Assembly: GCA_021824635.1 (NCBI GenBank)
Contig: JAKAKD010000050.1
Coordinates: 1-33,258, forward strand
Reading direction: 5' to 3'
DNA length: 33,258 nucleotides
Source: Bacteroidota bacterium
Lineage (GTDB): Bacteria > Bacteroidota > Ignavibacteria > Ignavibacteriales > Melioribacteraceae
The notes under the pieces are model-generated. The model had not been told where the DNA came from and ran no database searches. It was given only the letters and a program-made list of their open reading frames with translations. This document shows positions 1,619-22,713 of this stretch, one piece after another. Each line of letters starts with the position of its first letter. Position 1 is the first letter of the stretch. Both the position numbers and the translations under genes were made by a program.

Positions 1619-1767
1619 ATTCGCACCATAATAATCCCGCTTGCTACAAGATCAGCCCACTCACAACATTGATTATCAACACTTTCTTTTAACAGTCGAA
1701 TATCTATAAGTAAAGGATAATTATTGAACTAATAAAGTAGATGTATCAACCTATTAAGGAGTTTAAA
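1619..1767 (+). promoter_or_regulatory. Leader of first cheW, duplicated at 6017-6164
   Basis: This stretch aligns almost end to end with 6017-6164, with scattered substitutions and one single-base gap. Well-kept blocks include AATAATCCCGCTTGCT, TCACAACATTGA and GTCGAATATCTATAAGTAAA. It ends in AAGGAG at 1756-1761. Conservation in both copies upstream of cheW suggests it carries the promoter and perhaps another control signal. I could not assign a sigma factor. Confidence 0.6.
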
Positions 1768-2253: not shown

Positions 2254-2284
2254 CAATAAATCAAACTAACAAAAGGAGTCATCA

Positions 2285-3361: not shown

Positions 3362-3456
3362 TTATTAATTATAGAATTCTAGACACATATGTATTTGAAA
3401 TAACTAACATCATTAAATAAGAATTAATTACACAACAAAACAAAAGGAGAAACACC

Positions 3457-3915
3457 ATGAAAACATCAGTTACAATCTTATTTGCTGCTCTTATTTTTGG
3501 AGGAATAGTTTCAGCACAAGTGAAAATAGGAAAACCTGCCGATGCAGAGGCCTATGTGAAAAAAGCAATTGAATACATCAAAGCAAATGGTACGGACAAA
3601 GCGTTCGCAGAATTCAGCAACCCGAAAGGAAAATTTATTGAAGGTGATTTATATATCTCTGTATACGATATGAAAGGTTTCTGTGTCTCTCATCCAGATC
3701 CAAAAAAGAATAAAGTTGATTTGTCAGAAGAAAAAGATCCAACTGGAAAATTAGTACTCCAAGAAAGGTTAGCTCTTGCAAAACAAAATGGAAAAGGGTG
3801 GGCAAATTATAAAGGAAAGAGACTGGGCAGTAATGAGTTAGTTGATAAAACTGTATATGTTGAAAGGTACGACAAATATATTGTCTGCTGTGCAGTATAT
3901 GGTTTTATGAAATAG
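3457..3915 (+). CDS. Secreted single-Cache-domain sensor protein
   Basis: A 152-residue protein with a signal peptide (about 1-20, MKTSVTILFAAL then VSAQ) and one small alpha/beta domain. The motifs AYVKKAIEYIKANG, GDLYISVYDMKG, FCVSHPDPKKNK and a final VYVERYDKYIVCCAVYGF match the single-Cache family, which binds small ligands in the periplasm and is usually fused to receptors or kinases. Here it is a free protein with no transmembrane anchor or output domain. It lies between the porin and the first MCP, preceded by AAAAGGAG and followed by a hairpin. A plausible role is as a soluble binding protein that presents ligand to the adjacent MCP. This is inferred from family and position only. Confidence 0.75.
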   Translation: MKTSVTILFAALIFGGIVSAQVKIGKPADAEAYVKKAIEYIKANGTDKAFAEFSNPKGKFIEGDLYISVYDMKGFCVSHPDPKKNKVDLSEEKDPTGKLVLQERLALAKQNGKGWANYKGKRLGSNELVDKTVYVERYDKYIVCCAVYGFMK

Positions 3916-3932
3916 AATTTGCCGGTTGAGAC

Positions 3933-3954
3933 GGGTGTGAATTATTTCACACCC
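3933..3954 (+). terminator. Hairpin after Cache protein gene
   Basis: A perfect 9-bp stem (GGGTGTGAA / TTCACACCC) with a TTAT loop, followed by ATTTTA. The T-run is short, so it may only partly stop transcription before the MCP gene. Confidence 0.6.
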
Positions 3955-4030
3955 ATTTTAGCATCAGAATGTGATAACTATTTTTTCCCTTTGCCGAAAA
4001 AAATTTTGAGAAATAATTTATGAGGTTAAA

Positions 4031-5905
4031 ATGTTACAGCAATTTCGTCACCTGAGTGTGAAAAAAAAATTTGTCGGAACAACCATTGGGATTGTTCTCC
4101 TGATAGCGCTCTTCATCTTTTTATTTTTTCCAGCGACACTTCACACCAAAATGGAAGAATATCTAAAAGGTAAGGCGGAAGGAATGGCTATGGTGGCAGC
4201 AAACAGCGCCGTCAATGGGATGACCTTTAGTGATACTGAAGGCTTAAAACGAGTTCTTGAATCGATGAAAGATGTGAATGATATTGTTTTTTCTGCTGTC
4301 CTCTCGCCGGATGGTAAAACCTTCGTAGGACTCAACAATGAAAAAGGAAAAACACAAATTGCAGAGGCATCCAAATATCTTTCAATCGACAAAACAACAT
4401 TAATGGAAATAAGCAATATGTGGGTGGCAATTTCCCCTATAAAATCTGGATCGGACAGGCTCGGAACACTAATTCTTGGAGTTGATGAAACAAAATTTTT
4501 TCAGGATGTTGCATCGAGCAGGTATGTTTCTTTAATCGTTGGACTTATCATAATTTTGATTGGAACGGTAGTAGGAACATTCATAGCAAATTTAGTAACA
4601 AAACCAATAAAATCGCTTTCAGAAGCCGCAACAAAAATATCATCAGGTGATCTTTCCGTTCAGCTTGAAAATTCTTCAAAGGATGAAGTTGGCGAGCTTT
4701 CAAGACTTTTTAATATCATGGTCAAAAATCTACAGGTGCTAAACAACCAGTTGCAGGAAGAAAAGCTGAGTATCCAAAAGAAAGTTGAAGATGCAGTTGA
4801 AGAATCTGAAAATCAAAAAAGATATTTAACAGCAAGTGTAAACACTATCCTTGAAAAAATGAACAAGTTTGCTGACGGTGATTTAACCGTTTCTCTTGCT
4901 ATTGAAAAAAATGATGAGATCGGTAAATTATCCGAAGGTTTCAATAAAGCAGTTAGTAACGTTGGCTCTTTACTTTCACAAGTGAATGAGGCAGTTCAAG
5001 CCACAGCAAGTGCAAGCAACGAAATTTCATCGAGCACAGAACAAATGGCAGCCGGTGCGCAAGAGCAAAGTGCTCAAACAACAGAAGTAGCAGGCGCTGT
5101 TGAGGAGATGACAAAGACAATTTTCGAAACCACAAAGAACTCAGGCTTAGCATCCGATGCGGCTAAAAATGCAGGTTTGATAGCTAAAGAAGGCGGTAAA
5201 GTTGTTGGGGAGACTATTGAAGGTATGAACAGAGTAGCAGAAGTAGTTAAGAGATCAGCAGACACAGTCCAAGTATTAGGTAAGAGCAGTGATGAGATTG
5301 GCGAGATCGTTCAAGTCATTGATGATATAGCAGATCAAACAAACTTACTTGCATTGAATGCTGCAATCGAAGCCGCACGTGCCGGTGAACAAGGAAGAGG
5401 ATTTGCAGTAGTAGCGGATGAAGTTAGAAAATTAGCCGAACGCACAACCAAAGCAACAAAAGAAATTGCTACAATGATCCGCCAAATTCAGAAAGACACA
5501 GAAGGTGCAGTTGTATCTATGAAACAAGGAACAGAAGAAGTAGAAAAAGGAAAAGCATTAGCAGAAAAAGCGGGACAATCACTTAAAGAAATTATCACCG
5601 GTGCTCAAGATGTAGTAGATATGTCAACACAGGTAGCAGCGGCAAGTGAAGAACAATCAAGCGCAGCTGAACAAATCAGTAAAAACATTGAATCAATCAG
5701 CAGTGTAACACAAGAAAGTGCAGCCGGAGTACAACAGATTGCACGCGCCGCAGAAGATTTGAACCGGCTTACTGTCAACTTGCAAGAATTAGTTTCAAGA
5801 TTCAAGATTGATGAGAGTACAAATGGTAATGGGAAAAGCTCACACAAGACAGAGACGAGAAGTCAATTAGCAGTACGCTCTAACGGCAAGTTAGTTCATC
5901 ATTAA
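4031..5905 (+). CDS. Methyl-accepting chemotaxis protein with periplasmic sensor
   Basis: A 624-residue transmembrane receptor. TM1 is about residues 14-36 and TM2 about 165-188. Between them lies a ~125-residue periplasmic domain of Cache-like character ([36 protein letters not shown]). HAMP covers about 189-240. A second HAMP-like segment (about 272-310, [20 protein letters not shown]) leads into a long signalling coiled coil (about 320-595), whose hairpin tip [20 protein letters not shown] is where CheA and CheW bind. The tail ([19 protein letters not shown] then KLVHH) is nearly the same as in the MCP at 6720. GAGG precedes the ATG at a usable distance. The gene sits between the Cache protein and the second cheW, and a strong terminator follows. 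The ligand is not known. Confidence 0.95.
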
Positions 5906-5913
5906 AAAGATAG

Positions 5914-5948
5914 AGAGGAGAGACAAAGATGGCTCTCCTCTTTTTTTA
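5914..5948 (+). terminator. Rho-independent terminator after first MCP
   Basis: A perfect 9-bp stem AGAGGAGAG (5914-5922) / CTCTCCTCT (5933-5941) with a 10-base loop, followed directly by TTTTTTATTTT. It separates the first chemosensory unit from the second. Confidence 0.9.
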
Positions 5949-6016
5949 TTTTAAACAGGTACTGGCTATAAAATCATTATTCCTTCCGGGTAGTTCTTCA
6001 ACAACACAGGAGTAAT

Positions 6017-6164
6017 ATTCGCGCCAAAATAATCCCGCTTGCTTCAAAATCAGCCCTTTCACAACATTGAATATTAACATTTTCTTATACCAGTCGAATA
6101 TCTATAAGTAAACGATAATTATTGGACTATAAAGTAGACGTATTAACCGATTAAGGAGTTTATT
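6017..6164 (+). promoter_or_regulatory. Leader of second cheW, copy of 1619-1767
   Basis: It matches the first cheW leader through its whole length up to the start codon, including AATAATCCCGCTTGCT, TCACAACATTGA and CGAATATCTATAAGTAAA. It ends with AAGGAG at 6153-6158. It lies just after a strong terminator, so it must contain the promoter for the second cheW-MCP unit. Confidence 0.65.
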
Positions 6165-6659
6165 ATGGGTGATTCTGTTCAAATCAAAAACGATTCAACT
6201 GAACTTCTTCAGTTAGTCAGTTTCAAGATTGGTAATGAAGAGTTTGGAGTGGATATCCTGAACGTTCAGGAGATAAACAAAATGACGACCTTAACAAAAG
6301 TGCCCAACGCTCCCGATTTTGTTGAAGGCGTAATCAATCTGAGAGGAAGAGTTATACCGGTAATTGATTTAAGAATTAGACTTCATCTTCCTAAAAAAGA
6401 ACACGATAAGGATACGAGAATTATTGTAGTTGAAATTGAGAATAAAACTATCGGATTTATTGTTGACTCTGTGAACGAAGTTTTAAGAATCCCTGTAAAC
6501 ATCACAGAAGCTCCGCCGGAAATTGTAACCGGCGTTGATTCAGATTTCATTAAGTCGGTTGGAAAACTTGAAGACCGGCTTTTAATTCTGATTGATTTGA
6601 AAAAAATTCTTACAACAACTTATGAAAAAGAACTAAGCACAATGCTTGAAGAGGAATGA
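6165..6659 (+). CDS. cheW: CheW chemotaxis coupling protein (second copy)
   Basis: A 164-residue CheW adaptor linking MCPs to CheA. It keeps the same core motifs as the first copy: ELLQLVSFKIGNEEFGVDIL, VINLRGRVIPVIDLR, IGFIVDSVNEVLRIP, DFIKSVGKLEDRLLILIDL. Differences cluster near the middle (RIRLHLPKKEHD) and at the C-terminus (TTYEKELSTMLEEE). The ATG has AAGGAG at 6153-6158. The next gene, an MCP, starts about 60 bases downstream and is probably co-transcribed. Two such similar CheW proteins may be interchangeable, or may tune the array for different receptors; the sequence does not decide between these. Confidence 0.95.
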   Translation: MGDSVQIKNDSTELLQLVSFKIGNEEFGVDILNVQEINKMTTLTKVPNAPDFVEGVINLRGRVIPVIDLRIRLHLPKKEHDKDTRIIVVEIENKTIGFIVDSVNEVLRIPVNITEAPPEIVTGVDSDFIKSVGKLEDRLLILIDLKKILTTTYEKELSTMLEEE

Positions 6660-6719
6660 GTTTAGAAATTGAAGAACTATTTTTTGATCAGCCGAAAGAC
6701 AAAAGAAAGGGAGAATAAA

Positions 6720-8600
6720 ATGAATTGGTTTTATAATCTAAAAGTAAAAACAAAAATCGTTATTAGTAGTGTTTCAGTAGTGATAATTACAATTATCATA
6801 GGCACGGTCAGTTACTTCAGTCTTTCTAAGTTGGACCAAAATGCCTTAGAAATGTGCAACCGGTTAACTAAAAATGTGGAAGCATCTCAAGCAAATGAAG
6901 CAAAATTAATAATGGCGGAAAATCGTGAATTTGCTAACAGAATAGAAAATATTGTAATCATTTTAACAGTCATAATGAGCATTTCAGCAATTGGACTCGG
7001 GTTGATAATTGCCAAAAGACTATCCCATTCTATCGAACAGTTAAGTGATGCTGCTAAAAGAGTAGCTAACGGAGAATTAAATGTCCTTACCGAAATAATT
7101 TCCAAAGATGATATTGGTGAGTTAACAGAATCTTTTAATAAGATGTCTCTTAACATCTCTCAGCTTGTGGAAGATCTTGATAGTATGCCTACACCGGTAA
7201 TGATGGTTGACACAGAATTCAGTATAACTTATATGAATAAAATGGCAGCCGCAGTTGTAGGTAAAGATCAAAAATCATTACTCGGTCAAAAATGTTATAA
7301 TCAATTCAAGACAGATCATTGCCAAACTGAAAATTGTGCTCTTCATAAAGCTATGCAGTTACGTTCACAACAGATGGCAGAGACAATTGCCAGACCAAAC
7401 GGACAAGATATTCCAATAATGTACGTTGCAAAACCAAGAATAGATAAAAGCGGCAAGGTTGTTGGCGCTTCGGAATTTGTAACAGATATAACAAAAGTTA
7501 AAGAACACGAAAAATATCTTGATCTGCATGCCCGTAAATTATTGATCGAAATGGAAAAATTTGCCGATGGCGATTTAACAGTCGAAGTTGTCTCTGAAAA
7601 CAAAGAAGATATAATTGGTAAACTATTCAATGGATTTAACAAAGTTGTGGACAACATAAAACAGATTATGATAAGCGTAACCGAAGCAGTACAGGCAACG
7701 GCAAGCGCAAGCAATGAGATTTCATCTAGCAGCGAAGAGATGGCAGCCGGAGCTCAAGAACAAAGTTCTCAAACAACCGAAGTAGCAAGCGCAGTTGAAC
7801 AGATGACAAAAACAATCTTCGAAACAACAAAGAACTCCGGTAACGCGGCTGAAGCAGCTAAGAACTCTGGCGCTATTGCTATTGAAGGAGGAAAAGTTGT
7901 GGAGGAAACCATTATTGGAATGAACCGTGTGGCTGAAGTAGTAAAACAATCGGCAGAAACAGTTCAAACACTTGGGAAGAGCAGCGATCAGATTGGAGAG
8001 ATAGTTCAAGTAATAGATGATATAGCAGATCAAACAAACCTATTGGCATTAAACGCCGCAATTGAGGCCGCAAGAGCCGGAGAACAAGGAAGAGGATTTG
8101 CGGTTGTAGCAGACGAAGTAAGAAAACTGGCAGAGAGAACAACCAAAGCCACAAAAGAGATTGCAACAATGATTAAACAGATACAGAAAGATACAGAAGG
8201 TGCAGTCCAGTCAATGAGCAGAGGAACAGAAGAAGTAGAAAAAGGAAAAGTATTGGCAGATAAAGCAGGACAATCATTGAAACAAATTATAAGCGGTGCA
8301 CAGGATGTAGTAGATATGTCTACACAAGTAGCAGCAGCAAGCGAAGAACAATCCTCTGCAGCAGAACAGATAAGTAAAAATATTGAAGCAATCAGTAATG
8401 TAACCCAGGAGAGTGCCGCCGGAGTACAGCAGATTGCACGCGCCGCAGAAGATTTAAATAGACTAACTGTAAATCTCCAAGAGCTGGTATTAAGATTTAA
8501 AATTGATGGTGGTTCAAAGGCTAACGAAAAAGGTTCACACAAGGCAGATACAAGAAGCCAAATAGCGGTTCGTTCTAACGGCAAATTAGTTCATCATTAA
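6720..8600 (+). CDS. Methyl-accepting chemotaxis protein with cytoplasmic PAS domain
   Basis: The ATG at 6720 has AAGGGAG at 6707-6713 with a 6-base spacer, so I prefer it to the ATG at 6669; this gives 626 residues. TM1 ([21 protein letters not shown]) and TM2 ([21 protein letters not shown]) enclose only ~45 periplasmic residues, so outside sensing is unlikely to be the main input. HAMP follows, then a PAS domain (from [19 protein letters not shown] to [11 protein letters not shown]) with a three-cysteine patch C-x8-C-x4-C (KCYNQF, DHC, ENCAL), a second HAMP-like piece ([11 protein letters not shown]), and the MCP signalling coiled coil with tip [20 protein letters not shown]. The signalling part and tail closely match the first MCP, while the input part is different. 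It probably senses an internal, redox-type or cofactor signal through PAS; this is inference. Confidence 0.93.
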
Positions 8601-9237: not shown

Positions 9238-9353
9238 GGGGGAAGATCTTTTTAATTAAAGATCTACCTGGGGGGAGAAGATTTTTTCCAATTCATTTAG
9301 GATAATAAATTCCTTTGAGCAAATGTGGTTTACAATTCGAAGAAGGATTTTAT
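9238..9353. repeat. Tandem repeat copy 2, overlapping the channel gene end
   Basis: Same length as copy 1 (116 bp) and offset by 134 bp. It holds GGGGGAAGATC, the perfect inverted pair AGATCTTT/AAAGATCT, then CTACCTGGGGGGAGAAG and six T. Its right end (9330-9353) is the real 3' end of the minus-strand channel gene. The left part has diverged little from copy 1; the middle ~60 bases differ more. Confidence 0.8.
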
Positions 9354-10736
9354 TTTTGCAATCATTTTCTTAATAAATGAATCATCTTTGATCTTGTGAA
9401 ACTCCAGCTTTTGAATATTTCCGCTCTGCCGTTCAGCAATAATTTTAGCGAACTCATCAACTAATTGCGGTCGGTTTTCCAAAATTTTCTTTATAGAAAC
9501 TTTTGTAATTTCAAGAACAATAGAGTCTGTCTCAGTTATTACTGTAGCAGATCTTTCATCACCGGTAAATAAAGACATTTCGCCAAAAAATTGCCCGGGA
9601 GTAATTATCCCCACTTCGATTTCTTCATTTGAATTTCCATTGGTTCTTATAAATACTTTCAGCAATCCTTCTACAAGGATATACATAGAATCCCCCTTCT
9701 CTCCTTGCCGGATTACTGGCGTTCGTTCGGTATAAAATTCTTTTTTTGATTCCGAAAAAAGTTTTTCTAATTCTTCTTTACTTAGTGAATTAAAGAGTGC
9801 GACATTCTCAATAATATTGAAATCATGTTTATCGCCGGAGATGCCAAATCCAATACCGGCAATTTTTAGATTATTAATTATACGTGTCAGCACAAAATCT
9901 TTGGCCGTCTCCGGTGAGTTGGACTTCCACGGCGCTATCCAGAAATTAATCTTATATTCGATTGTATCTTTAGATATTTTGGAAACATTTATTTGAGGTT
10001 GAACACTTTTATTCTCCAATTCTAATAGCGCCTGCTTGGTACTTGCATACAATATTCTTTTTATTCTCTCTATTGAGAGATCTGCATTTAATTTTATAAA
10101 AAGACTAAACCGATTTTCTTTTTTGATTCCGCTGAAATTTTCTATTAGAAATTCATCCAGGAGATTATTGGGGAATAAAAGAAGTGTATCTTTTTCACTC
10201 CTGAGTTGTATAGCCATTCTGTCAAATTGGATTACCTCACCAACAATTAATTCATTCCCGTTTTTGTTTATTAGTTTTATCCAATCTCCTACTTTAAACG
10301 GTCTAGTTGTATTGATAAATTCTTTGCTAAAATATTTGAGAGCTTTTGGTCTAAGAAATGTCAATGCTATAAGAAGAATTAGAAATGTTAGTGCCAATAA
10401 TGAGGTCGTTGACTGTTCAAAAACCGCTGTAACAATTATCCATACTGCCGTTAGATAGATAAAAGTAACCGTTAGATCTTCTATCAGTCCAAGAGTCTTA
10501 GAACTAGCTGACGTTTTAATAATTTTTCCCCAAATGATTTTGCGTATAAAAGTATTAAGCAAATAAGAGCCCGACAGCCAAAAGACAATATTGATAGAAT
10601 AATAAAATAGACTATCCATGTTCATGCCCGGCTCTGTAGCGTGAGTCGTCTTGAAAAATCCATTGACGACTGAAAACAATGTAATAAGAAAGAGAACTAA
10701 CGATACAGCAAGAAACTTATTTTTTGGAATAATCAT
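9330..10736 (-). CDS. MscS-type channel with C-terminal cyclic-nucleotide-binding domain
   Basis: A 468-residue inner-membrane protein. About four membrane helices lie in residues 7-130 (FLAVSLVLFLITLFS, FWLSGSYLL, FIYLTAVWIIVTAVF, LLALTFLILLIALTF). The MscS beta and alpha/beta domains follow (TRPFKVGDWIKLI, QLRSEKDTLLLFPNNLL, to ~305). A cNMP-binding domain covers about 312-435, with a phosphate-binding cassette FFGEMSLFTGDERSATV; Glu386 and Arg396 are the usual ligand contacts and are both present. This arrangement is that of bacterial cyclic-nucleotide-gated (bCNG) members of the MscS superfamily, which are typically weakly or not tension-gated. AGGAGG at 10745-10750 supports the start. 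The gene stands alone, with the tandem repeat at its 3' end. Whether cAMP or cGMP is the ligand cannot be read here. Confidence 0.9.
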   Translation of the reverse strand: MIIPKNKFLAVSLVLFLITLFSVVNGFFKTTHATEPGMNMDSLFYYSINIVFWLSGSYLLNTFIRKIIWGKIIKTSASSKTLGLIEDLTVTFIYLTAVWIIVTAVFEQSTTSLLALTFLILLIALTFLRPKALKYFSKEFINTTRPFKVGDWIKLINKNGNELIVGEVIQFDRMAIQLRSEKDTLLLFPNNLLDEFLIENFSGIKKENRFSLFIKLNADLSIERIKRILYASTKQALLELENKSVQPQINVSKISKDTIEYKINFWIAPWKSNSPETAKDFVLTRIINNLKIAGIGFGISGDKHDFNIIENVALFNSLSKEELEKLFSESKKEFYTERTPVIRQGEKGDSMYILVEGLLKVFIRTNGNSNEEIEVGIITPGQFFGEMSLFTGDERSATVITETDSIVLEITKVSIKKILENRPQLVDEFAKIIAERQSGNIQKLEFHKIKDDSFIKKMIAKIKSFFEL

Positions 10737-13014: not shown

Positions 13015-14730
13015 ATGCCGTTATTAAAGCCAAAATTATTCACGACACTAAAAGATTATAACAAAAAACAATTCATTGCAGATGCAACCGCAGGAGTTAT
13101 AGTTGGAATTGTTGCGCTTCCATTAGCAATTGCGTTTGCAATTGCAAGCGGTGTTACTCCGGAAAAAGGAATCATTACTGCTATTATAGCCGGGTTTATA
13201 GTCTCGGTGTTTGGCGGAAGCCGTGTGCAAATTGGCGGACCCACCGGAGCTTTCATAATTATTGTTTATGGAATAATCCAGAATTATGGTGTAACCGGAT
13301 TAACTATAGCAACTGTAATGGCCGGCATTATTTTAGTCATAATGGGATTAGTCCGATTCGGATCATTAATAAAATTTATTCCTTATCCCGTTATTGTGGG
13401 CTTTACAAGCGGAATAGCGCTATTAATTTTTTCGACTCAGATAAAAGATTTTTTTGGTTTGCAGATAAAAGAAATACCATCAGAGTTTCATGAAAAGTGG
13501 ATAGCGTATTTTACGGCAATGCCAACCATAAATTTTTACGTACTGGGAATTGCTCTGTTATCATTATTAATAATGATTTTCTGGCCAAAAGTTACACATA
13601 AAATTCCAGGTTCATTAGTTGCGATAATTGTAGCTACTGTTTTAGTTATGGTGTTTCATTTACCCGTTGATACAATTGGAAGTAAATACGGCGAAATTCC
13701 TTCAAACTTACCGGCGCCTCATCTCATTACAATAAATTTAACTCTCATTAAAAATCTAATCGCCCCGGCTACGGTTATTGCATTGCTTGCTGCAATTGAA
13801 TCATTATTATCTGCTGTTGTTGCCGATGGTATGATTGGCGGGAAACACCGCAGTAATATGGAATTGATTGCGCAGGGATTAGCTAATATAGTTACTCCCC
13901 TATTTGGAGGAATTCCGGCTACTGGAGCAATCGCCAGAACTGCAACAAATATAAAGAATGGAGGAAGAACGCCGGTAGCTGGAATCATTCACGCAATTAC
14001 ACTATTACTAATTATGCTTTTCTTTGGAAGCTACGCCAAGTTAATTCCGATGGCAACATTAGCGGCAATTCTTGTAATTGTTTCATATAATATGAGCGAA
14101 TGGCATGCTTTTAAAACTCTTTTGAAAAGTCCAAAGAGCGATATTATTGTTTTGCTTACAACATTCTTTCTAACTGTAATTTTTGATTTAACTATTGCAA
14201 TCGAGATTGGAATGGTGCTGGCAGTATTACTCTTTATGAAACGGATGGCGGAAGTTTCCAATGTAAGCGTCATTACAAGAGAATTGGAAGATGAAGACGA
14301 GCAACCTGACGCAAATGCAGTAGATAAAAAATTAATTCCGGTAGGTGTTGAAGTCTTCGAAATAAATGGTCCTTTCTTCTTTGGCGCCGCTTCTAAATTC
14401 AAAGAAGAAATGCGTGTAATTGAAGAACCGCCGAAAGTTAGAATTATTCGCATGCGAAATGTTCCGGCTGTTGATGCAACAGGTTTGCAAACCATAAAAG
14501 ATTTTTATCATGATGCTAAAAAGCAGGGAACGCATATAATCCTTTCGGGAGTTCATACTCAACCATTGTATGCAATGACTCAAGCCGGTATCTTTGATTT
14601 GGTAGGAGAAGAAAATATTTACGGCAATATTGATGATGCTTTAGATCGTGCACGTGAAATTCTTGGACTATCAAAATTAGGAAGACCAAAAGATTTTGTG
14701 CCGACCGTTAAAAGAGAGATGAAAAATTAA
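13015..14730 (+). CDS. SulP family anion transporter with STAS domain
   Basis: A 571-residue inner-membrane transporter. The N-terminal region has the family's repeated membrane fold ([75 protein letters not shown]). A STAS domain covers about 440-555 ([30 protein letters not shown]). SulP proteins move sulfate, bicarbonate, or other anions, commonly with Na+ or H+; the substrate cannot be read from the sequence. AGAGGAAAG precedes the ATG. The gene is 45 bases upstream of the HTH-EIIA gene and heads the Ehr-type cluster on the same strand, so it is likely part of that operon. If so, the transported anion may be tied to the complex, for example bicarbonate or sulfate; this is a hypothesis. 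Confidence 0.93.
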
Positions 14731-14775
14731 TTGAAATAATTCTAAATAATAACAAACATTAAATGAGATTAAAGA

Positions 14776-15450
14776 TTGGACCTTACGATAAAAGATATTT
14801 CTCATCTGCTGATTCTATCGGAGAAAGAAATTCAACTGTTAGTTAAGAAGAAAGAAATTCCTTTCCAAATACTTCATGAAAAAGTATTCTTTAATAAACA
14901 TCAGATTATTGAATGGGCGCTTGGGCGTAATCTTCCGATCAATGTTTCCGGTCACATGAAACTAAGCGAGTATCATATAAAGACTTTAAATACATTGCTT
15001 GACAAAGAATCTTTTCATTATGGCTGCGCTTTATCGGAATCATCTTATATAGAACAAATGATTTCTAAAATTGATTTTGAAAAAAATGTAGATAGAGAGA
15101 TTATAATTCAACTCCTAAAGAATAGAGAAACATTGATGAGTACTGCTATTGGAAACGGAATAAGTTTGCCTCATCCGAGGGTTCCATTGATGGTTGGTAA
15201 AAATAAGCCGCTTATTAATTTTTTCTTTCCAAAGAAACACCTCGATCTGAAATCAACTGACGGCAAACCGGTACACACACTTATACTTTTAATTTCGCAA
15301 ACGATTAAACAGCACTTAAGTTTGATTGCACATCTGAGTTTTTTATTGTCGAAAGAAACTTTCCGCTTCGCTCTGGAAAATCGCCTTAATTATCAAGAGA
15401 TTCTAGATATAATAAGTAAAATTGAAGAAACGAGAGACAAAGAAAAATAA
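14776..15450 (+). CDS. Helix-turn-helix / PTS EIIA (PtsN-like) fusion protein
   Basis: A 224-residue protein. Residues 1-50 look like an excisionase/MerR-type winged helix (LTIKDISHLLILSEKEIQ, then VFFNKHQIIEWALG). Residues ~65-220 match the PTS EIIA type-2/nitrogen family, with phosphorylatable His133 in TAIGNGISLPHPR. The start is TTG: an in-frame TAA lies at 14770-14772, leaving only AGA before TTG at 14776, and the next in-frame ATG is at residue 61, which would delete the HTH. GAG lies ~8 bases upstream. It ends 6 bases before the hyfB-like gene, so the two are surely co-transcribed. EIIA proteins of this kind relay phosphate state to regulate targets. Here it may sense phosphorylation and control transcription of the cluster, or bind SulP or the complex; this is inference. 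Confidence 0.85.
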   Translation: MDLTIKDISHLLILSEKEIQLLVKKKEIPFQILHEKVFFNKHQIIEWALGRNLPINVSGHMKLSEYHIKTLNTLLDKESFHYGCALSESSYIEQMISKIDFEKNVDREIIIQLLKNRETLMSTAIGNGISLPHPRVPLMVGKNKPLINFFFPKKHLDLKSTDGKPVHTLILLISQTIKQHLSLIAHLSFLLSKETFRFALENRLNYQEILDIISKIEETRDKEK

Positions 15451-15456
15451 TGATCA

Positions 15457-17448
15457 ATGAATAACTCATTAATACCTGGGAATTATTTATTTATTTCGGC
15501 ATTTGTCATTCAATTTTTGGCGATTGTTCCTCTAACTATATTAAAAAATGAAAAGAAAGCATTCGTAATTTCCAATTTTATTTTGCTTATCGGTTTAGTG
15601 TTGGGACTCATATCCACGTTATCATCTAAACTTTTTTCATTTGCTTCGTTTTCAAGCAATGACACTTTGCTTTTTAGTAATTGGATCCGGCTGGACGGAT
15701 TAGGGCTTTATTTTTTATTTATCATTCAGCTTGTTGCAATACCAACCGTTATTTACAACTTCTCCTACCTTCAGCACTACATTGATCAAAAGCGGTCTAT
15801 AAAAAGTTTTGTTACGTTTTATATTATTCTACTTATCTCAACACAGTTTGTTGTAATGGCTAATCAAGCTATCCTCTTTCTGGTTAGCTGGGAAGTCATG
15901 AGTATGTCAGCTTATCTTGGAATGTTGCTGGAGAAAGAGAAAGAAGAAGTTCAGAAAGGAAGTTTTTACTATTTTGTTGCCTCTCACCTTTTAGTATTTA
16001 TTCTTTACATTTTTTTCTTTTTGCTTCACCATCAAACCAACAGCTGGCTTTTAAGCGATTATCACTTAACGGCAGCAACTATCAGCCTTATTCCTATTCT
16101 TTTCATTTTATCATTTGTTGGTTTTGGAATAAAAGCGGGATTCATGCCGTTTCATTTCTGGTTGCCTCAAGCTCATCCTATTGCTCCAACTGTATTGAGC
16201 GCTTTTCTTTCCGGTGTTATTATCAAAACCGGCATCTATGGAATACTTAGAACATTTCAATTTCTAAAACCAATTCCGGAATGGTGTGGCTGGCTGATTC
16301 TTGTTGTAAGTATTTTCAGTGCAATCTTTGGGGTGTGGTACGCATTAGCCCAGCACGATATTAAACGTCTTCTCGCTTATCACTCGATCGAGAATATTGG
16401 AATTATTGGAATTGGTATCGGTATCGGTTTTATCGGCTCTGCAAATAATTTGCCGGTTATAGAAGTGCTCGGTTTTGGCGGCGCTCTTCTGCACACATTA
16501 AATCACGCAATCTTCAAGAGTCTTCTGTTTCTTGGAAGCGGTGTAATTTATCAGAACTTAGGAACAAGAAATATTGAATTGATGGGCGGACTTGTTCATC
16601 GGGCAAAATATTTAGCAATACTTTTCCTAATAGGTTCGATTGCAATTAGCGGTATTCCACCGTTCAACGGATTTATTTCAGAGTTCATTATATATACCGG
16701 ATTTTTCCAAACCGCGAAAGAATTGAAAAATTATTATCCGCTTTTAATGTTACTGTTTGTTGTAGGACTTGCCTTCGTCGGCGGATTAGCTGTTGCCTGT
16801 TTTACAAAAATTAATTCCATAATGTTTTTGGGAACCGAGAGAAAAGAAGTAAAACATTTTCACATCTCGGTTTTTGATTACATCTCTCTTGGAATTTTAG
16901 CTTTACTCTGCATTGTAATTGGATTTTATCCCCAGCCATTTATAGGAATAGTAAATAAAGTAATAAGTAATGGTTTTGTTGCTGCAAATTCCCCTTCCGC
17001 ACTATTAAATATGAATTGGTTATCTATTACAATTATTTTTTCTTCAATCTTATTCGGTGTAATAGTTTTGTATTTCGCAAAGATGCAAATTCATAAAAGA
17101 TATGGAAGAAGAACCTCGGCAGCCTGGAGTTGCGGATATGAAAATCAAAGTCCAAGAATGCAATACACAGCCTCATCCTTTGCTGATGAACTGAACACCA
17201 TTCCAAAAACAATTTTACTATACAATAAAAAAGTTGATTCATCCAAACGAGTAATTCCCAAGCCGTCAAGTTTTGAAAGTCACTCCTCCGATTTTGTTGA
17301 CAATAAAATTGTTCTGCCGGGTTATAGTTTATTAGGAAAAATAATTTCTAAGATAGAATTTTTAAGTCGGACCGATATTAGGTATTACATTGCTTTCATT
17401 TTAGTTATGATAATAATTTATAGTTTTATAGCATTCTTATGGATATAG
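15457..17448 (+). CDS. hyfB: HyfB-like proton-pumping membrane subunit of Ehr-type complex
   Basis: A 663-residue, multi-helix membrane protein of the NuoL/NuoM/Mrp antiporter-like family, hydrogenase-4 component B/HycC branch. The key proton-path residues are present: Glu146 in LVSWEVMSMSAYLG, Lys226 and His233 in GFGIKAGFMPFHFWLPQAHP, His346/His350 in ALLHTLNHAIFKSLLFLG with Lys354, and KRLLAYHSIENIG. The C-terminal soluble part (RRTSAAWSCGYENQSPRMQ) is typical of HyfB. It overlaps the next gene by 10 bases. In this cluster it should couple electron flow to H+ or Na+ transport. No truncation is seen. Confidence 0.93.
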   Translation: MNNSLIPGNYLFISAFVIQFLAIVPLTILKNEKKAFVISNFILLIGLVLGLISTLSSKLFSFASFSSNDTLLFSNWIRLDGLGLYFLFIIQLVAIPTVIYNFSYLQHYIDQKRSIKSFVTFYIILLISTQFVVMANQAILFLVSWEVMSMSAYLGMLLEKEKEEVQKGSFYYFVASHLLVFILYIFFFLLHHQTNSWLLSDYHLTAATISLIPILFILSFVGFGIKAGFMPFHFWLPQAHPIAPTVLSAFLSGVIIKTGIYGILRTFQFLKPIPEWCGWLILVVSIFSAIFGVWYALAQHDIKRLLAYHSIENIGIIGIGIGIGFIGSANNLPVIEVLGFGGALLHTLNHAIFKSLLFLGSGVIYQNLGTRNIELMGGLVHRAKYLAILFLIGSIAISGIPPFNGFISEFIIYTGFFQTAKELKNYYPLLMLLFVVGLAFVGGLAVACFTKINSIMFLGTERKEVKHFHISVFDYISLGILALLCIVIGFYPQPFIGIVNKVISNGFVAANSPSALLNMNWLSITIIFSSILFGVIVLYFAKMQIHKRYGRRTSAAWSCGYENQSPRMQYTASSFADELNTIPKTILLYNKKVDSSKRVIPKPSSFESHSSDFVDNKIVLPGYSLLGKIISKIEFLSRTDIRYYIAFILVMIIIYSFIAFLWI

Positions 17449-18362
17449 AAATTTTACAAGGACCTATCGCAATTTTTGTGATCATTGGGATTGCTCCTTT
17501 GTTCGCCGGATTTATCAACAAACAAAAAGCAATTTTGACCGGAAGAATCGGTGCGCCGGTTTTGCAGCCGTATTATGATCTGCTTCGGCTTTTCAGAAAA
17601 GAAACAATCAATGCAAAGAGTTCCTCTTTTATAAGTCAAATTTCACCACTCATAAATTTTATTGTGATTATTGTTGCAGCCGCAATGCTTCCAATCGGTT
17701 ATTGGAAACCGTTAATTAGTTTTAACGGCGATATAATTTTATTTGCATATACATTAGGACTTGCAAGATTCTTCCAGATATTAGCGGCAATGGATATTGG
17801 AAGTTCATTTGAAGGAATGGGCGCTTCACGTGAAGCAACATTTGCTTTGTTTGCAGAGCCAATTTTCTTTTTCACTCTTGGAAGTGTAGCATTTATAAGC
17901 GGACTAACTTCCATTTATGATATCTATCATTCGATTAGATTGGATAATATTTCATACATCGTTTTTATAATAATCTGTTCGATCTCAGCATTCATACTTG
18001 CAATAACGGAATGTTCACGAATGCCGGTAGATGATCCCAATACACATCTTGAACTTACAATGATTCATGAAGTAATGATTCTTGATAATTCCGGTTTCGA
18101 CTTGTTTCTTTATCTATACTCTAGTTATATAAAATTATTTATTTATGCTATTCTAGAAATATCATTTTTCTACCCGTTCAGCGCTAAAAGTTATCTGCTC
18201 GGAATAGTAATTTTTATTGTCGGCAGCATTATTCTCTCTCTCACTTTGGCAATCGTTGAAACAATAACGTCACGGTTTAAGATGAAGAATATTCCGCAAT
18301 ATCTTTTATTTGCAACAGCAATAGGAATACTGAATTTGTTGATCTATACTTTTACCAAATGA
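17439..18362 (+). CDS. hyfC: HyfC/HycD-like (NuoH-like) membrane anchor subunit
   Basis: A 307-residue membrane protein of the NuoH/complex I subunit 1 family, HyfC/HycD branch. Typical segments are GRIGAPVLQPYYDLLRLFRK, SSFEGMGASREATFALFAEP, and TECSRMPVDDPNTHLELTMI followed by HEVMILDNSG. The acidic residues of these loops, which in complex I and group 4 hydrogenases carry the proton signal from the peripheral arm to the membrane arm, are retained. The ATG overlaps the hyfB stop by 10 bases, indicating translational coupling. It forms the docking site for the large and small subunits encoded downstream. Confidence 0.94.
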   Translation: MDIEILQGPIAIFVIIGIAPLFAGFINKQKAILTGRIGAPVLQPYYDLLRLFRKETINAKSSSFISQISPLINFIVIIVAAAMLPIGYWKPLISFNGDIILFAYTLGLARFFQILAAMDIGSSFEGMGASREATFALFAEPIFFFTLGSVAFISGLTSIYDIYHSIRLDNISYIVFIIICSISAFILAITECSRMPVDDPNTHLELTMIHEVMILDNSGFDLFLYLYSSYIKLFIYAILEISFFYPFSAKSYLLGIVIFIVGSIILSLTLAIVETITSRFKMKNIPQYLLFATAIGILNLLIYTFTK

Positions 18363-18369
18363 GTTAATT

Positions 18370-19002
18370 ATGGGAAATGTGTTAAGCATTCTTTTTTGTT
18401 TATCGTTGTTCTATGTCTCTATTACTTCACGAGTAAAAGGATACGTAACTGTTTTGCAAATACAAGGCGTACTGCTATCCTTAATAATTGTAATTCCGTT
18501 TATTTACCCGTTCTCCATTTACGGAATAATCCTTCCCGCTACACTCTTACTGGTTAAAGTGTTTCTTATTCCTAGATATATAAATAAAATTATTCTTGAT
18601 CTCGATATTAGAAGAGTGATAGATCCCACCATACAGCAATTTTCTTTTTTACTTCTTGTCATTGCGACAATGGTTGTAATATTTGTAGTCTCAAACATCC
18701 TTTCCCAAAGCACCGAATTGAATGTGATTCCTTTTGCAAGCGGATTCTCTGCAATCGTAATTGGTATTTATATAATAATGTTTCGTAGAAAACTTATCGT
18801 TCATGTTGCCGGTTTTCTGATTTTGGAAAACGGGATCTTCCTTTTCGGTACTGCCGTTGCCTCAGAACTCCCGATGATGATTGAATTGGGGACATTACTT
18901 GATGTGTTTGTTGTTGTCTTTCTAATGGGAATCGCGATAAATAAAATCAGTACAACCCTAGATGGGTTTGATGTTACCGCGCTTGGGAGGTTAAAAGACT
19001 GA
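18370..19002 (+). CDS. hyfE: HyfE-like small membrane subunit
   Basis: A 210-residue, all-membrane protein with about six helices. The HyfE signature is in the last third: RRKLIVHVAGFLILENGIFL followed by FGTA, then ELGTLLDVFVVVFLMGI. Part of it is related to NuoK of complex I; the Glu of LENGIF corresponds to the conserved membrane Glu. It starts 7 bases after hyfC and its TGA overlaps the next ATG (TGATG), so the operon is continuous. Known relatives are found in hydrogenase-4, formate hydrogenlyase-like and Ehr complexes, but not in complex I itself as this longer form. Confidence 0.9.
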   Translation: MGNVLSILFCLSLFYVSITSRVKGYVTVLQIQGVLLSLIIVIPFIYPFSIYGIILPATLLLVKVFLIPRYINKIILDLDIRRVIDPTIQQFSFLLLVIATMVVIFVVSNILSQSTELNVIPFASGFSAIVIGIYIIMFRRKLIVHVAGFLILENGIFLFGTAVASELPMMIELGTLLDVFVVVFLMGIAINKISTTLDGFDVTALGRLKD

Positions 19003-20456
19003 TGTTCGAGTTTTTCATTTTCATATTGCTTCCGCTAATAACATCGTTATTCTGTTCTGTTGTAAAGAACCTTCGCATTCAGTATTCTGTTTCGTTGAGT
19101 GTAAGTGTTCTTCATTTAATTCTGGCACTAAGTGTTTTTCTTGGATACTATCATACAAATTTACCGTTCTTCTTCAGCGTTGATTCGTTGAGCAAATTTT
19201 TCCTTCTGATTCTTTCAAATGTTTACTTCTGGGTTGTGCTTGTTTCTTTCTCATATTTGAAAAGACCGGTTACACATGCAGCCGAGAAGAGCAAAGGATT
19301 TTACTTTTTACTTCTTAATTTTTATTTGGCGGCAAATTCCGCGGCAATGTTAAGCAACCATTTCGGAATGTATTGGGTTGCTGCAGAAGCAACTACATTA
19401 AGTGTTGCCCCTCTAATCTATTTCTACCGCAACGAAGAAGCCCTCGAAGCAATGTGGAAATATCTTTTCTTAGTATCAATCGGAATTGCATTTGCTTTTA
19501 TAGGCATCCTATTCTTAACACTCTCAGCCAAAGGTTCAATTCTCGAAGGGAAACAATTATTCTTTTGGGAATTTATTAGGAACGCTAAACAATTAAATCC
19601 AATCTGGTTAAAAGCGAGTTTCATATTCATCTTTGTTGGATTAAGCACAAAAATAGGAATAGCGCCGATGCATTCCGGCGATGTTGATGCTACGAGTAAT
19701 GCGCCGAGTCCAATTGCCGCATTGATGTCCGGCTCTCTTCGTTTAACTGCGCTGATGGGTGTTCTCCGCATCTTTGAAATAATTCGACCTACATCTTCGT
19801 ATGAATTTGCAAAAACAATTCTCATAATCGGCGGATTGCTTTCACTTTTTGTAGCGTTCGTTTTTATGTTCAAAGTAACCAATTATAAACGAATGCTCGC
19901 CTACTCGAGTGTTGAACATTTGGGATTAATAACTTTAGGAATAGGAATCGGAGGTCTAGCTTTTGTAGGCGCTATGTATCATGCAATTTATAATTCAATA
20001 ATGAAAGTAATTTTATTTCTTACTGCCGGAAATATTCACAGCAAATACAAATCAAGAGAAGTTTCAAAAGTAACATCAGTTTTAAATAGAATGCCGAAAA
20101 CCGGCTGGTTATTTCTTTTGGCATTCTTAGGAATTTCCGGTATTCCACCATTCGGAATATTTTTCAGTGAAATAAAAATTTTTGAAGGAATGCTTTTTTC
20201 AAACAAACCGGCCCTTCTTGTATTAACAATGTTCTTCCTTCTTTTTATCTTTATTAATATGGGCAAGATTATTTTCTTTATGCTTTATAAGAAAAACGAT
20301 AACGACAATTCTGAAATAGGAAATGAACATTTTGATTTCATCCATTTGACTGTAATTCTTCTTTTAATTCTATTAACAACAATATCCGTTCTTTCGCCGG
20401 ATGTTATTTATCAGAACATTATTAACATCACAAAAGATTTTGGTATGAATTTATGA
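19002..20456 (+). CDS. hyfF: HyfF-like second antiporter-type membrane subunit
   Basis: A 484-residue NuoL/M/N-type membrane protein, HyfF branch. The proton-path residues are kept: Glu129 in YWVAAEATTL, Lys217 in GLSTKIGIAPMH, Lys296 in KRMLAYSSVEHLG, His327 in MYHAIYNS and Lys335. One difference is clear: the segment usually read as WLPDAH after APMH is here SGDVDATS (224-231), so a loop of the half-closed helix region is altered. It overlaps hyfE by one base and the next gene by four (ATGA). With HyfB it gives the complex two antiporter-like modules, as in hydrogenase-4. Confidence 0.92.
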   Translation: MFEFFIFILLPLITSLFCSVVKNLRIQYSVSLSVSVLHLILALSVFLGYYHTNLPFFFSVDSLSKFFLLILSNVYFWVVLVSFSYLKRPVTHAAEKSKGFYFLLLNFYLAANSAAMLSNHFGMYWVAAEATTLSVAPLIYFYRNEEALEAMWKYLFLVSIGIAFAFIGILFLTLSAKGSILEGKQLFFWEFIRNAKQLNPIWLKASFIFIFVGLSTKIGIAPMHSGDVDATSNAPSPIAALMSGSLRLTALMGVLRIFEIIRPTSSYEFAKTILIIGGLLSLFVAFVFMFKVTNYKRMLAYSSVEHLGLITLGIGIGGLAFVGAMYHAIYNSIMKVILFLTAGNIHSKYKSREVSKVTSVLNRMPKTGWLFLLAFLGISGIPPFGIFFSEIKIFEGMLFSNKPALLVLTMFFLLFIFINMGKIIFFMLYKKNDNDNSEIGNEHFDFIHLTVILLLILLTTISVLSPDVIYQNIINITKDFGMNL

Positions 20457-21931
20457 TGCCGCTCGAAGTTCAAAACAACCAGTCATTCGATCTTGCCGCA
20501 ATTCCTTTTGAGGATAGAAAAAATTTTAGAGATGCAGTCTTAGAGGAATTATCTAACGGTAACAGAATGATCGGACTCTATCCAATTGAAAAAACTCATT
20601 CGGAAAAATTAATAGCTCTTTTTGCTGAACCGGATTCTTCAATGATTCATATTATCGGTGGAATATTTGACGAGCATAATCTACAATTTGAAAGCTGGGC
20701 AAATGAATTTCCACAGACAAATTACTACGAATGCGAACTTTCAGAAAATTATGGATATCTACCGTTAAATCATCCATGGCTTAGACCGGTTAGAAAACAG
20801 AATTTTATTTTGGGTGACAAGCCGTATCATTTTTACAGAATGGATGGGGAAGAAATTCACGAAGTTGCTGTCGGTCCAATTCACGCCGGTGTTATTGAGC
20901 CGGGACATTTCCGCTTTCAATGCCATGGAGAATTGGTTTATAATCTTGAAATTAATTTGGGTTATCAGCACAGAGGAATTGAGAAATTATTACTCAACTC
21001 AAATCCGCTACAAAGAATTATTCTCTCGGAATCAATTGCCGGAGATACTGTTATAGGACATTCTCACGCACACTGTAATGCAATAGAAAATTTATCCAAT
21101 ACCCAGGTAAGTTTTCGCGCGCAAGTTGTTCGTTCTATCGCAGAAGAGATTGAAAGAATTGCAATGCATCTATCGGGATTAGGAGGTGTTGCCAACGATA
21201 TCGGATTTGCGTTGGTTTCTTCTTCATACGGCCGACTTCGCACACTCGCAATAAATAGTCTTGCTTTATTATGCGGTTCAAGATTCGGACGCGGCTTATT
21301 TATCTATGGGGGAGTTCGTTTTGATTATACAGATGAAATCATTGAAGAAACAATTGCAAATCTTCAGATCATAAAAAATGATGTTGCTGTAATCAACGAA
21401 TATTTATTTTCTTCTACAGGTGTATTAACCAGATTTGAGAATACCGGAATCATATCAAAAGAATCCGCACAACAGATTGGAATGGTAGGTCTAGCCGCGC
21501 GTTCGAGCGGACTTGAGAATGACGCACGAGTTCAATTCCCATACGGCGCTTACCGCTACAATCCAGTGTCTCTAATAACTTTGTCAAGCGGAGATGTTTT
21601 TGCACGGGCTCGCTTACGCGCATTAGAAATAGATGAATCGCTAAAATTCATTAATGACCAATTAGAAAACCTTCCGCAAGGTGAGATAAAAACCAATGTT
21701 GAAAATATAATTGCGAAAAAAGGAGTAATATCAATTACAGAAGGTTGGAGGGGAGAAATAATCCATACGGTTTTCACAGACGAAAAAGGAAATTTAGCAC
21801 TGTATAAAATCAAAGATCCTTCATTTAATAATTGGTATGGATTAAGTCTGGCGTTACGCAGGACTGCAATTTCAGATTTTCCGTTATGCAATAAAAGTTT
21901 TGATCTGTCTTATGCCGGACACGATTTATAA
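20453..21931 (+). CDS. hyfG: HyfG/NuoCD-like large subunit lacking the Ni-Fe ligands
   Basis: A 492-residue peripheral subunit with a NuoC-like N-terminal domain (about 1-105) fused to a NuoD/hydrogenase large-subunit domain (VGPIHAGVIEPGHFRFQ, INLGYQHRGIEKL, RSIAEEIERIAMHLSGLGG). True [NiFe] hydrogenases hold the metal with CxxC pairs near each end. Here the first pair is AGDT (Ala196, Thr199 in ESIAGDTVIGHS) and the second is SYAG (Ser486, Gly489 in FDLSYAGHDL), so all four cysteines are missing although the flanking residues align. It also ends at that point without the C-terminal extension that maturation proteases cut. The protein is thus not a hydrogenase. The empty cavity may bind a quinone or another small carrier, as in complex I. 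Two ATGs in tandem (20453, 20456) are both possible starts. Confidence 0.92.
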   Translation: MMPLEVQNNQSFDLAAIPFEDRKNFRDAVLEELSNGNRMIGLYPIEKTHSEKLIALFAEPDSSMIHIIGGIFDEHNLQFESWANEFPQTNYYECELSENYGYLPLNHPWLRPVRKQNFILGDKPYHFYRMDGEEIHEVAVGPIHAGVIEPGHFRFQCHGELVYNLEINLGYQHRGIEKLLLNSNPLQRIILSESIAGDTVIGHSHAHCNAIENLSNTQVSFRAQVVRSIAEEIERIAMHLSGLGGVANDIGFALVSSSYGRLRTLAINSLALLCGSRFGRGLFIYGGVRFDYTDEIIEETIANLQIIKNDVAVINEYLFSSTGVLTRFENTGIISKESAQQIGMVGLAARSSGLENDARVQFPYGAYRYNPVSLITLSSGDVFARARLRALEIDESLKFINDQLENLPQGEIKTNVENIIAKKGVISITEGWRGEIIHTVFTDEKGNLALYKIKDPSFNNWYGLSLALRRTAISDFPLCNKSFDLSYAGHDL

Positions 21932-21960
21932 AATTTCATTAAGGTCATCAAAATATTTTT

Positions 21961-22713
21961 ATGAAAGAAGTAATAAAAGTTAGAATACTTCAGGGCGATC
22001 CGATTGTTCATGATGTTCGACATGCCCAATTTCCGCCTTTATACAGAGGCTTACCTTCTATTGCAGATAAACCTTGTTTTGATAATTGCAGAAAATGCGT
22101 TGACGTTTGTCCAACGAGTGCAATCGAATTGAATCCGGTTAGAATTAATTTGGGGTTGTGTGTGTTCTGTCCGCTGTGCGAAGAAACATGTCCCGAAAGA
22201 ATAATTCATTTTACGAACGATTATCATTTATCGGCAAGTTTTGAAGAACAACTTATAGTTACAAAAGAAACAAATAAAATCACTCCCGAAAAGGCATCGG
22301 AGAAAATCAAAAAGTATTTTGGTAAATCGCTTAAGCTCCGACAAATTTCTGCCGGCGGCTGCAACGGATGTGAACTTGAACTTAATGCTCTTAGCAATGT
22401 TAACTTTGATATGGGCCGCTATGGAATTGAGTTTGTTGCCTCACCACGTCATGCAGACGGCGTTGTTCTAACCGGACCAATCACAAAAAATATGACAAAG
22501 GCAACAGATATTTGTTTTGAAGCAGTTCCTCATCCAAAAATAATTATTCTTTTCGGCGCTTGTGCAATTTCCGGCGGTATCTTTCAAAATTCAGATCAGA
22601 TTGAAAGAGAATTTTTAATGAAAAATAAAATTGATCTCTTCATTCCGGGCTGTCCTCCTCATCCTCTAACATTCATAAATGGATTACTTGATTGGCTGGA
22701 TAAAAAAGGATAA
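21961..22713 (+). CDS. Fusion of 2[4Fe-4S] ferredoxin and NuoB-like small subunit
   Basis: A 250-residue protein that joins two subunits which are separate in hydrogenase-4 (HyfH and HyfI). The N-terminal ferredoxin has two cluster motifs, Cys39/43/46/50 (the first spacing is C-x3-C, one longer than usual) and Cys67/70/73/77. The NuoB-like domain (from ~120) has Cys134 and Cys137 in GGCNGCELE, Cys201 in FGACAISGG and Cys231 in PGCPPHP. This is the hydrogenase-type C-x2-C pattern rather than the adjacent Cys pair of complex I. So three [4Fe-4S] clusters could lead electrons to the large subunit's cavity. The gene starts 29 bases after the large subunit with a weak ribosome site and ends the cluster. 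The fusion order (ferredoxin first) is clear in the sequence. Confidence 0.9.
   Translation: MKEVIKVRILQGDPIVHDVRHAQFPPLYRGLPSIADKPCFDNCRKCVDVCPTSAIELNPVRINLGLCVFCPLCEETCPERIIHFTNDYHLSASFEEQLIVTKETNKITPEKASEKIKKYFGKSLKLRQISAGGCNGCELELNALSNVNFDMGRYGIEFVASPRHADGVVLTGPITKNMTKATDICFEAVPHPKIIILFGACAISGGIFQNSDQIEREFLMKNKIDLFIPGCPPHPLTFINGLLDWLDKKG

Follow-up and report, generated by a model that had tools for sequence, protein, structure and literature searches.

An energy-converting-hydrogenase-related complex without Ni-Fe ligands in a Melioribacteraceae bacterium, and its HTH-EIIA partner

We describe an energy-converting-hydrogenase-related (Ehr) complex encoded on a stretch of 33,258 nucleotides (contig JAKAKD010000050.1 of assembly GCA_021824635.1, hereafter the window) from a Bacteroidota bacterium of the family Melioribacteraceae. 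Its large subunit belongs with those of the group 4 [NiFe] hydrogenases and has lost all four cysteines that hold the Ni-Fe site, and in our opinion the complex is probably (we would put it near 0.6) a redox-driven ion pump descended from such a hydrogenase. The Ehr class as such is known; what is new is the evidence on the replaced site and a linkage to a protein of phosphotransferase-system (PTS) type, here called HTH-EIIA. The class deserves attention, as it is found in many phyla, stands between hydrogenases and complex I and has been called nonfunctional in one recent paper. The replacement site, a sister enzyme with its cysteines intact and the co-inherited PTS-type partner offer handles on Ehr function, in the form of residues, a comparison enzyme and a regulator. 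Papers are cited by PMC number.

The replaced site, selection and descent

The large subunit EhrL (20453..21931, + strand, 492 aa) is NuoD/HycE-like by alignments and fold matches, and its N-terminal part appears to be NuoC-like. It aligns with Escherichia coli HycE and archaeal MbhL across the hydrogenase domain. Where HycE has CGIC, EhrL has A196-G-D-T199 (21038..21049), and where HycE has CYSC, it has S486-Y-A-G489 (21908..21919); the first-pass annotation had read the two motifs in the same way. Thus the two CxxC pairs of a group 4 hydrogenase are absent from an otherwise group 4-type large subunit, as is expected of Ehr. That annotation also considered a sequencing error hiding a CxxC. 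A whole-protein search found 16 relatives, 45-90% identical, which together with the window protein form alignment A1, and all 16 read [ATSC]-G-D-[TS] and S-Y-[ASC]-G. Because they come from other assemblies and carry the same kind of replacement, an error of sequencing or assembly is excluded. A further Ehr genome, the eighteenth (G021), has a cut EhrL gene and was omitted from A1, yet it reads AGDS and SYCG.

A wider set of 95 Ehr rows consists of the window and 94 loci (97 taken, three duplicates removed), the named loci being the best 80 of at least 572 confirmed stretches, with 77 used. G197, D198, S486, Y487 and G489 are invariant in 95/95 rows. Position 196 is alanine in 79 rows, position 199 is threonine or serine in 94, and the second motif is SYCG, with a cysteine at the third place, in 71, the window not among them. 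E149 and R350 align with a glutamate and an arginine of HycE; E149, which is kept, is also the counterpart of MbhL Glu21, the proton-relay glutamate of the membrane-bound hydrogenase MBH. The predicted structure of EhrL gives near-full-length fold matches to HycE and NuoCD, with 7z0s_E (HycE of formate hydrogenlyase) as the top Foldseek match.

Two loci hold additional Ehr-like pieces. In Verrucomicrobia, L117:17166-19031 encodes a second Ehr-like large subunit (SGDS/SYSG, ending in NDR) in tandem with a normal Ehr, and it branches just outside the main Ehr clade. A complete Ehr operon in G006:C17 is followed, some 6.4 kb downstream, by a second, truncated Ehr piece (L040:18846-19900), which consists of a C-terminal EhrL fragment and then EhrS.

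Key residues are conserved in other subunits as well. EhrS (21961..22713, + strand, 250 aa; Oxidored_q6, Fer4) is a ferredoxin-like domain fused to a NuoB/HycG-like small subunit, and its cluster ligands C134, C137, C201 and C231 are present at hydrogenase spacing, in 90-91 of 93 rows. The ferredoxin part has eight cysteines in two [4Fe-4S] motifs, and 64 of the 93 rows have all eight. In 23 of the other 29, C50, C67, C70 and C73 are kept and one or more of the other ferredoxin cysteines is missing, a pattern that could reflect either misalignment or, in some lineages, the loss of one cluster. The membrane arm comprises four + strand genes, for which residue counts were taken only from rows above a length limit. 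In the HyfB-like antiporter subunit EhrA (15457..17448; Proton_antipo_M, with hydrogenase 4 subunit B as the top NCBIfam match, under cut-off) E146 is kept in 76/76 rows, and K226, K257 and E409 in 77/77. The HyfC/NuoH-like anchor EhrB (17439..18362; NADHdh) keeps the NuoH-type acidic set E140, E191, D198, E205, E211 and E274 in 85-86 of 86 rows. EhrC (18370..19002) is a HyfE-like membrane subunit (NF008556, hydrogenase 4 membrane subunit, 3e-13, under cut-off), and EhrD (19002..20456; Proton_antipo_M, top NCBIfam match hydrogenase 4 subunit F, under cut-off) is a HyfF-like antiporter subunit in which E129 and K217 are conserved. The full Ehr subunit set, EhrA-D, L and S with antiporter-like members, is therefore in place, and the earlier judgement that the small subunit retains hydrogenase-type Fe-S ligands, and that the Fe-S input and the membrane arm look functional, agrees with these residues.

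Both the EhrL and the EhrS open reading frames (ORFs) are intact (20453-21931; 21961-22713). We estimated ratios of nonsynonymous to synonymous substitution (dN/dS) pairwise within the window's clade with a simple Nei-Gojobori script of our own, many dS values being above 1. The ratios are 0.068-0.127 for EhrL (13 of 15 pairs, two saturated), 0.033-0.081 for HTH-EIIA (5 of 15, ten saturated), 0.059-0.087 for EhrS (4 of 6) and 0.074-0.119 for the HyfB-like protein (6 of 6). Ehr is under purifying selection. The maturation genes were reported missing from the window, and indeed no Hyp protein is found among the 26 window proteins scanned with Pfam. Of the hypABCDEF set that was to be looked for in the rest of the genome, HypD alone was sought; it has no match in the window genome (94% complete). 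A hydrogenase large subunit of PF00374 is likewise not found in this genome. Because of the purifying selection and the lack of HypD and PF00374, we regard the gene set neither as a product of sequencing error nor as a decaying hydrogenase.

As to descent, a careful tree of 39 rows rooted on NuoD (the 60 rows of a quick tree minus 10 Ehr, 5 Nuo, 1 Cys-bearing and 5 odd rows) places all 17 Ehr rows in one clade (100/100) inside the group 4 side. A single clade of the 12 Cys-bearing rows, a group chosen for testing after sight of an earlier tree, is rejected (approximately unbiased test, p-AU 2.3e-10). The first-pass annotation had named a position inside the catalytic group 4 hydrogenases as telling against its reading. 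Such nesting is what we find, but every Ehr row is without the ligands, so that the nesting speaks for descent from a hydrogenase and not for hydrogenase activity. The nearest Cys-bearing row (L186) comes from G076, the genome of Lentisphaerae locus L121; it has CGVC and CYSC, and its genes stand in the same order. Two odd rows that likewise have no CxxC pairs (L184, and L172 on a very long branch) fall beside L186 and Ehr in the 60-row tree, their order unresolved. The Ehr clade of that tree holds rows of Geomonas, Pelobacter, Gastranaerophilales and Planctomycetota (G. sulfurreducens was not in the set), and thus the window falls in one clade with the lineages named in print, Geobacter kin and Melainabacteria. 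We read this as one or a few losses of the ligands around the Ehr stem; without a root, a tree does not by itself separate loss from gain. Three Spirochaete proteins (L150, L151 and L152, of G070, G067 and G057) form a separate NuoD-like clade with CVPD/CPPE, AVPE/YPPE or CVVD/CPPD in place of the CxxC pairs.

The HTH-EIIA partner and the SulP transporter

The genes for HTH-EIIA and for a SulP transporter, both upstream of Ehr, were not mentioned in the first-pass annotation and are added here. Eight + strand genes (13015-22713) follow in the order SulP transporter, HTH-EIIA2, HyfB-, HyfC-, HyfE- and HyfF-like subunits, EhrL and EhrS, with intergenic gaps of 45, 6, -10, 7, -1, -4 and 29 nt, a spacing from which we infer one operon. 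HTH-EIIA (14776..15450; PTS_EIIA_2 1.5e-19) owes the first part of its name to a Pfam helix-turn-helix match (HTH_17), which is weak and under the Pfam cut-off in the window protein but over it in three paralogues. The EIIA active-site His133 is kept in 63 of 65 rows.

A protein search among 57 related genomes found full-length HTH-EIIA homologues (E 1e-143 to 1e-25) in 18; below these there is a gap, after which partial, PtsN-like matches follow, none of them better than E 3e-13. Ehr is present in the same 18 genomes and in no other of the 57 (18/18 versus 0/39; Fisher p 3e-15, not corrected for kinship). In 16 of the 18 the HTH-EIIA gene immediately precedes the HyfB-like gene, and in the other two (G021, G041) it is on a different contig from EhrL, which in both is near a contig end. 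The enzyme I N-domain is present in 18/18 Ehr genomes but likewise in 37/39 of the others. The association extends over many phyla: an HTH-EIIA gene occurs no more than 12 kb from Ehr in 51 of the 70 loci with at least 7.3 kb upstream, and three of the 19 remaining loci (L082, L100, L102) carry one 11-14 kb away on the same contig. Among 25 named Ehr genomes, several of which supplied rows of search query A2, 20 have a full-length HTH-EIIA on the Ehr contig, and G079 has a piece of one at a contig end. EIIA and EhrL distances are correlated (Mantel r 0.75, 0/2000 permutations, n=51), and a FastTree of 70 EhrL shows 11 changes between presence and absence of HTH-EIIA. We found no Ehr/HTH-EIIA link in the literature searched, key subscription papers being outside its coverage, and the main text of PMC6349859 has no PTS, EIIA or SulP terms.

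Paralogues of HTH-EIIA were looked at in ten stretches. An HTH-EIIA ORF is seen in 7 of the 10, and in three of the seven it stands in a run with an ion transporter: a CitMHS/ArsB-type permease in L208, and Na+/H+ exchangers in L205 and L209, of which one is fused to EIIA. In the other four stretches the sole scanned neighbour is a dienelactone-hydrolase-type protein in L206. An ion-transport theme around the paralogues is thereby only suggested.

The SulP-family anion transporter with its STAS domain (13015..14730, + strand; Sulfate_transp 1e-88) heads the co-directional run. TIGR00815 matches it over cut-off, and the DauA and BicA models under theirs. It is the single SulP found in the window genome. 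A SulP occurs in five of the 18 Ehr genomes, among them that of the window, each time as a single copy next to Ehr. At E 1e-20 none is found in the other 13, one of which (G007) is closely related to the window genome and has the same operon in all other respects. Within the fetched stretches, 10 of 94 loci have one, two of them about 8 kb downstream. The same order recurs in L122 (Verrucomicrobia); in L057 and L074, the latter cut by the contig end, the gene is divergent. The link of SulP with Ehr is one of lineages and not general.

What the complex may do

The Ni-Fe site is lost and yet the complex is strictly preserved, hence it probably carries out another reaction. We propose that low-potential electrons, from ferredoxin or a similar carrier, would enter the fused ferredoxin domain of EhrS and pass via its proximal cluster to the former Ni-Fe pocket of EhrL. 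There, at an Asp/Ser/Tyr/Glu site, an acceptor other than protons would be reduced, possibly a carrier or a quinone bound non-canonically, with E149 as a possible proton donor. The released energy would move H+ or Na+ through the HyfB- and HyfF-like subunits. Redox-coupled charge translocation is presumed for Ehr in the available literature; what we see here are the conserved residues described above. The phosphorylation state of the PTS probably acts through HTH-EIIA on expression or on activity.

Several observations weigh against the view of Ehr as a redox-driven pump derived from a hydrogenase, or narrow what can be drawn from the data. All 77 named loci carry the scan pattern HAG[VI]IEPG, so that residues 144-151 are invariant there by construction; an unbiased view of how far I148 and E149 are conserved comes from A1 alone, the window with its 16 relatives. 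The EhrL model is poor at the pocket, with a predicted local distance difference score (pLDDT) below 50 at 111-119, 124-158, 160-172, 322-363, 366-380 and 458-492; we used it for the fold only and not for claims about the former active site. Four of the 25 named Ehr genomes (G066, G068, G077, G078) are without a full-length HTH-EIIA, which is thus not a universal companion of Ehr. Ehr can share a genome with hydrogenases: 5 of the 18 Ehr genomes have HypD and 13 do not, and 4 have a PF00374 protein. Among the window proteins we recognised no module that could serve as electron donor. Clustering of neighbours at the 94 loci (without ORFs shorter than 90 aa and those that overlap an ORF of Ehr, EIIA or SulP) gave 12 clusters that occur in at least three loci, and Pfam on one member each revealed no recurrent redox partner. 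They are a sensor kinase, an ABC transporter, a Wzi-like protein (below cut-off), an MFS protein, a chemotaxis receptor, HlyD, a bile-acid symporter, a small phosphatase, a radical SAM protein, GGDEF, GAPDH and one without a match.

A more specific form of the proposal, in which Ehr is a pump controlled by the PTS with HTH-EIIA as its switch, works with a new Asp/Ser/Tyr site in the place of the Ni-Fe centre and supplies the gradient that drives SulP in this clade, is in our view tentative. The strongest of the competing explanations, though less likely than not, is a menaquinone reductase, that is, a complex I of simpler build that takes its electrons from ferredoxin and holds the quinone by residues other than His and Tyr. 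Complex I is of the same superfamily and shares the core architecture, and a UbiA-family prenyltransferase is found in 37 of 39 Ehr genomes, with three copies in the window genome. However, UbiA also covers enzymes outside quinone synthesis, for example haem O synthase; the family is unspecific and its presence proves little, while two of the 39 genomes are without a match (for neither is completeness given). Further, the equivalents of Nqo4 His38 and Tyr87 are I148 and G197 in EhrL, whereas both NuoD proteins of the window genome (G000:C77, 437 aa; G000:C105, 375 aa) keep H and Y. With these two further NuoD genes the bacterium probably has two complex I-type systems besides Ehr. According to PMC6349859, the Riflemargulisbacteria that bear Ehr have no full quinone pathway. 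Of the two kinds of acceptor suggested in the first-pass annotation, a quinone or a small carrier, the quinone is possible but finds no support in the residues.

The proposal made for Margulisbacteria and Saganbacteria, a formate-driven complex of formate dehydrogenase (FDH) with Ehr, seems to us unlikely here. In its favour, PMC6349859 describes fdhA with NuoE/F-like genes in Ehr-bearing genomes, Ehr subunits were detected in the Geobacter proteome, at higher levels on formate than where hydrogen was present (PMC7894505), and two Ehr relatives (G016, G021) come close to the Fdh-alpha cut-off with 607 and 589 bits. That cut-off (TIGR01591, 666 bits) is passed in 0/57 relatives, the best match in the window genome being 193 bits; no FdhA or NuoE/F-like protein is among the 26 window proteins scanned, and neither FDH nor NuoE/F is among the 12 neighbour clusters, rarer neighbours not being annotated. 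FdhA with NuoE/F-like genes beside Ehr is thus not what the window, or for Fdh-alpha the genome, presents.

Still more doubtful is that Ehr serves ion-coupled uptake of bicarbonate or another anion by energising the adjacent SulP transporter. The single run with its gaps of 45 and 6 nt, the adjacency in all five SulP-bearing Ehr genomes and the recurrence of the order in L122 argue for such a unit, but 13 of 18 Ehr genomes are without SulP and no more than 10 of the 94 loci have one in the fetched stretch, so that this cannot be the role of Ehr in general.

The idea of a nonfunctional remnant, to which the missing Ni-Fe site lends some appearance, has been put forward in print: PMC13194489 states that Geobacter Ehr is nonfunctional and reports missense mutations in two ehr genes in long-term culture. 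We disagree, and consider a decaying hydrogenase very improbable. It is contradicted by the selection signal (dN/dS at most 0.13 in every measurable pair of the window's clade), which argues against that statement so far as the measured lineages represent Geobacter, and further by the invariant replacement residues, by the occurrence of the gene set in loci of many phyla and by the proteomic detection in Geobacter (PMC7894505). A hydrogenase that still works with other metal ligands is just as improbable: E149, R350 and the cysteine of SYCG could be cited for it, but the window protein does not have that cysteine and is non-Cys at all four ligand positions, and 13 of the 18 Ehr genomes have no HypD.

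Surroundings and comparison with known systems

Elsewhere in the window, 1741-8600 holds two CheW-like and two methyl-accepting chemotaxis receptor genes with a Cache-domain protein and a porin-like protein between them, and 9330-10736 a mechanosensitive-channel-like protein fused to a cyclic-nucleotide-binding domain.

The closest known system is Ehr as described from Geobacter, Methylacidiphilum, comammox Nitrospira and the candidate phyla radiation (ehrABCDLS), with which the window complex shares the subunit set, the loss of the Ni-Fe cysteines, the antiporter-like subunits and the position beside group 4 hydrogenases. The first-pass annotation was right in assigning it to this class, whose reaction is not established, in agreement with PMC6349859, PMC10284858, PMC7304191 and PMC10432482. 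Ehr without the cysteines is described in PMC10284858, where its function is unknown, and in PMC7304191; ehrABCDLS is also listed in PMC6688271, where it may have a part in pH homeostasis. The window run has one ehrA, like the Methylacidiphilum list, whereas Geobacter has ehrA-1 and ehrA-2. For the HTH-EIIA partner and SulP in the same run we found no description in the literature searched.

With formate hydrogenlyase and hydrogenase 4 (HycE, HyfG) the complex has in common the fold, the small-subunit cluster ligands and a HyfB/C/E/F-like membrane arm. It differs from them in having no Ni-Fe ligands and no HypD in the genome, in the ferredoxin domain fused to the small subunit and in a run without a HyfD-like gene. 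The sulfane reductase MBS of Pyrococcus is another relative of group 4 hydrogenases and likewise is without equivalents of H38 and Y87, but it also lacks the Glu21 relay and one of the proximal-cluster cysteine ligands (PMC7684303), whereas Glu149 and all four proximal cysteines are kept here. Complex I (NuoB/C/D/H/L/M/N) shares the homologous core and the antiporter residues; its quinone-site His and Tyr are replaced in EhrL, and no NADH module was recognised in the window. The last comparison is with the Cys-intact protein of the Lentisphaerae genome (G076:C355, L201), possibly a catalytic sister of Ehr: it has the same HyfB-C-E-F-G-small-subunit order, a ferredoxin-like part fused to the small subunit and an NKSF motif in common with Ehr, but it retains CGVC and CYSC.

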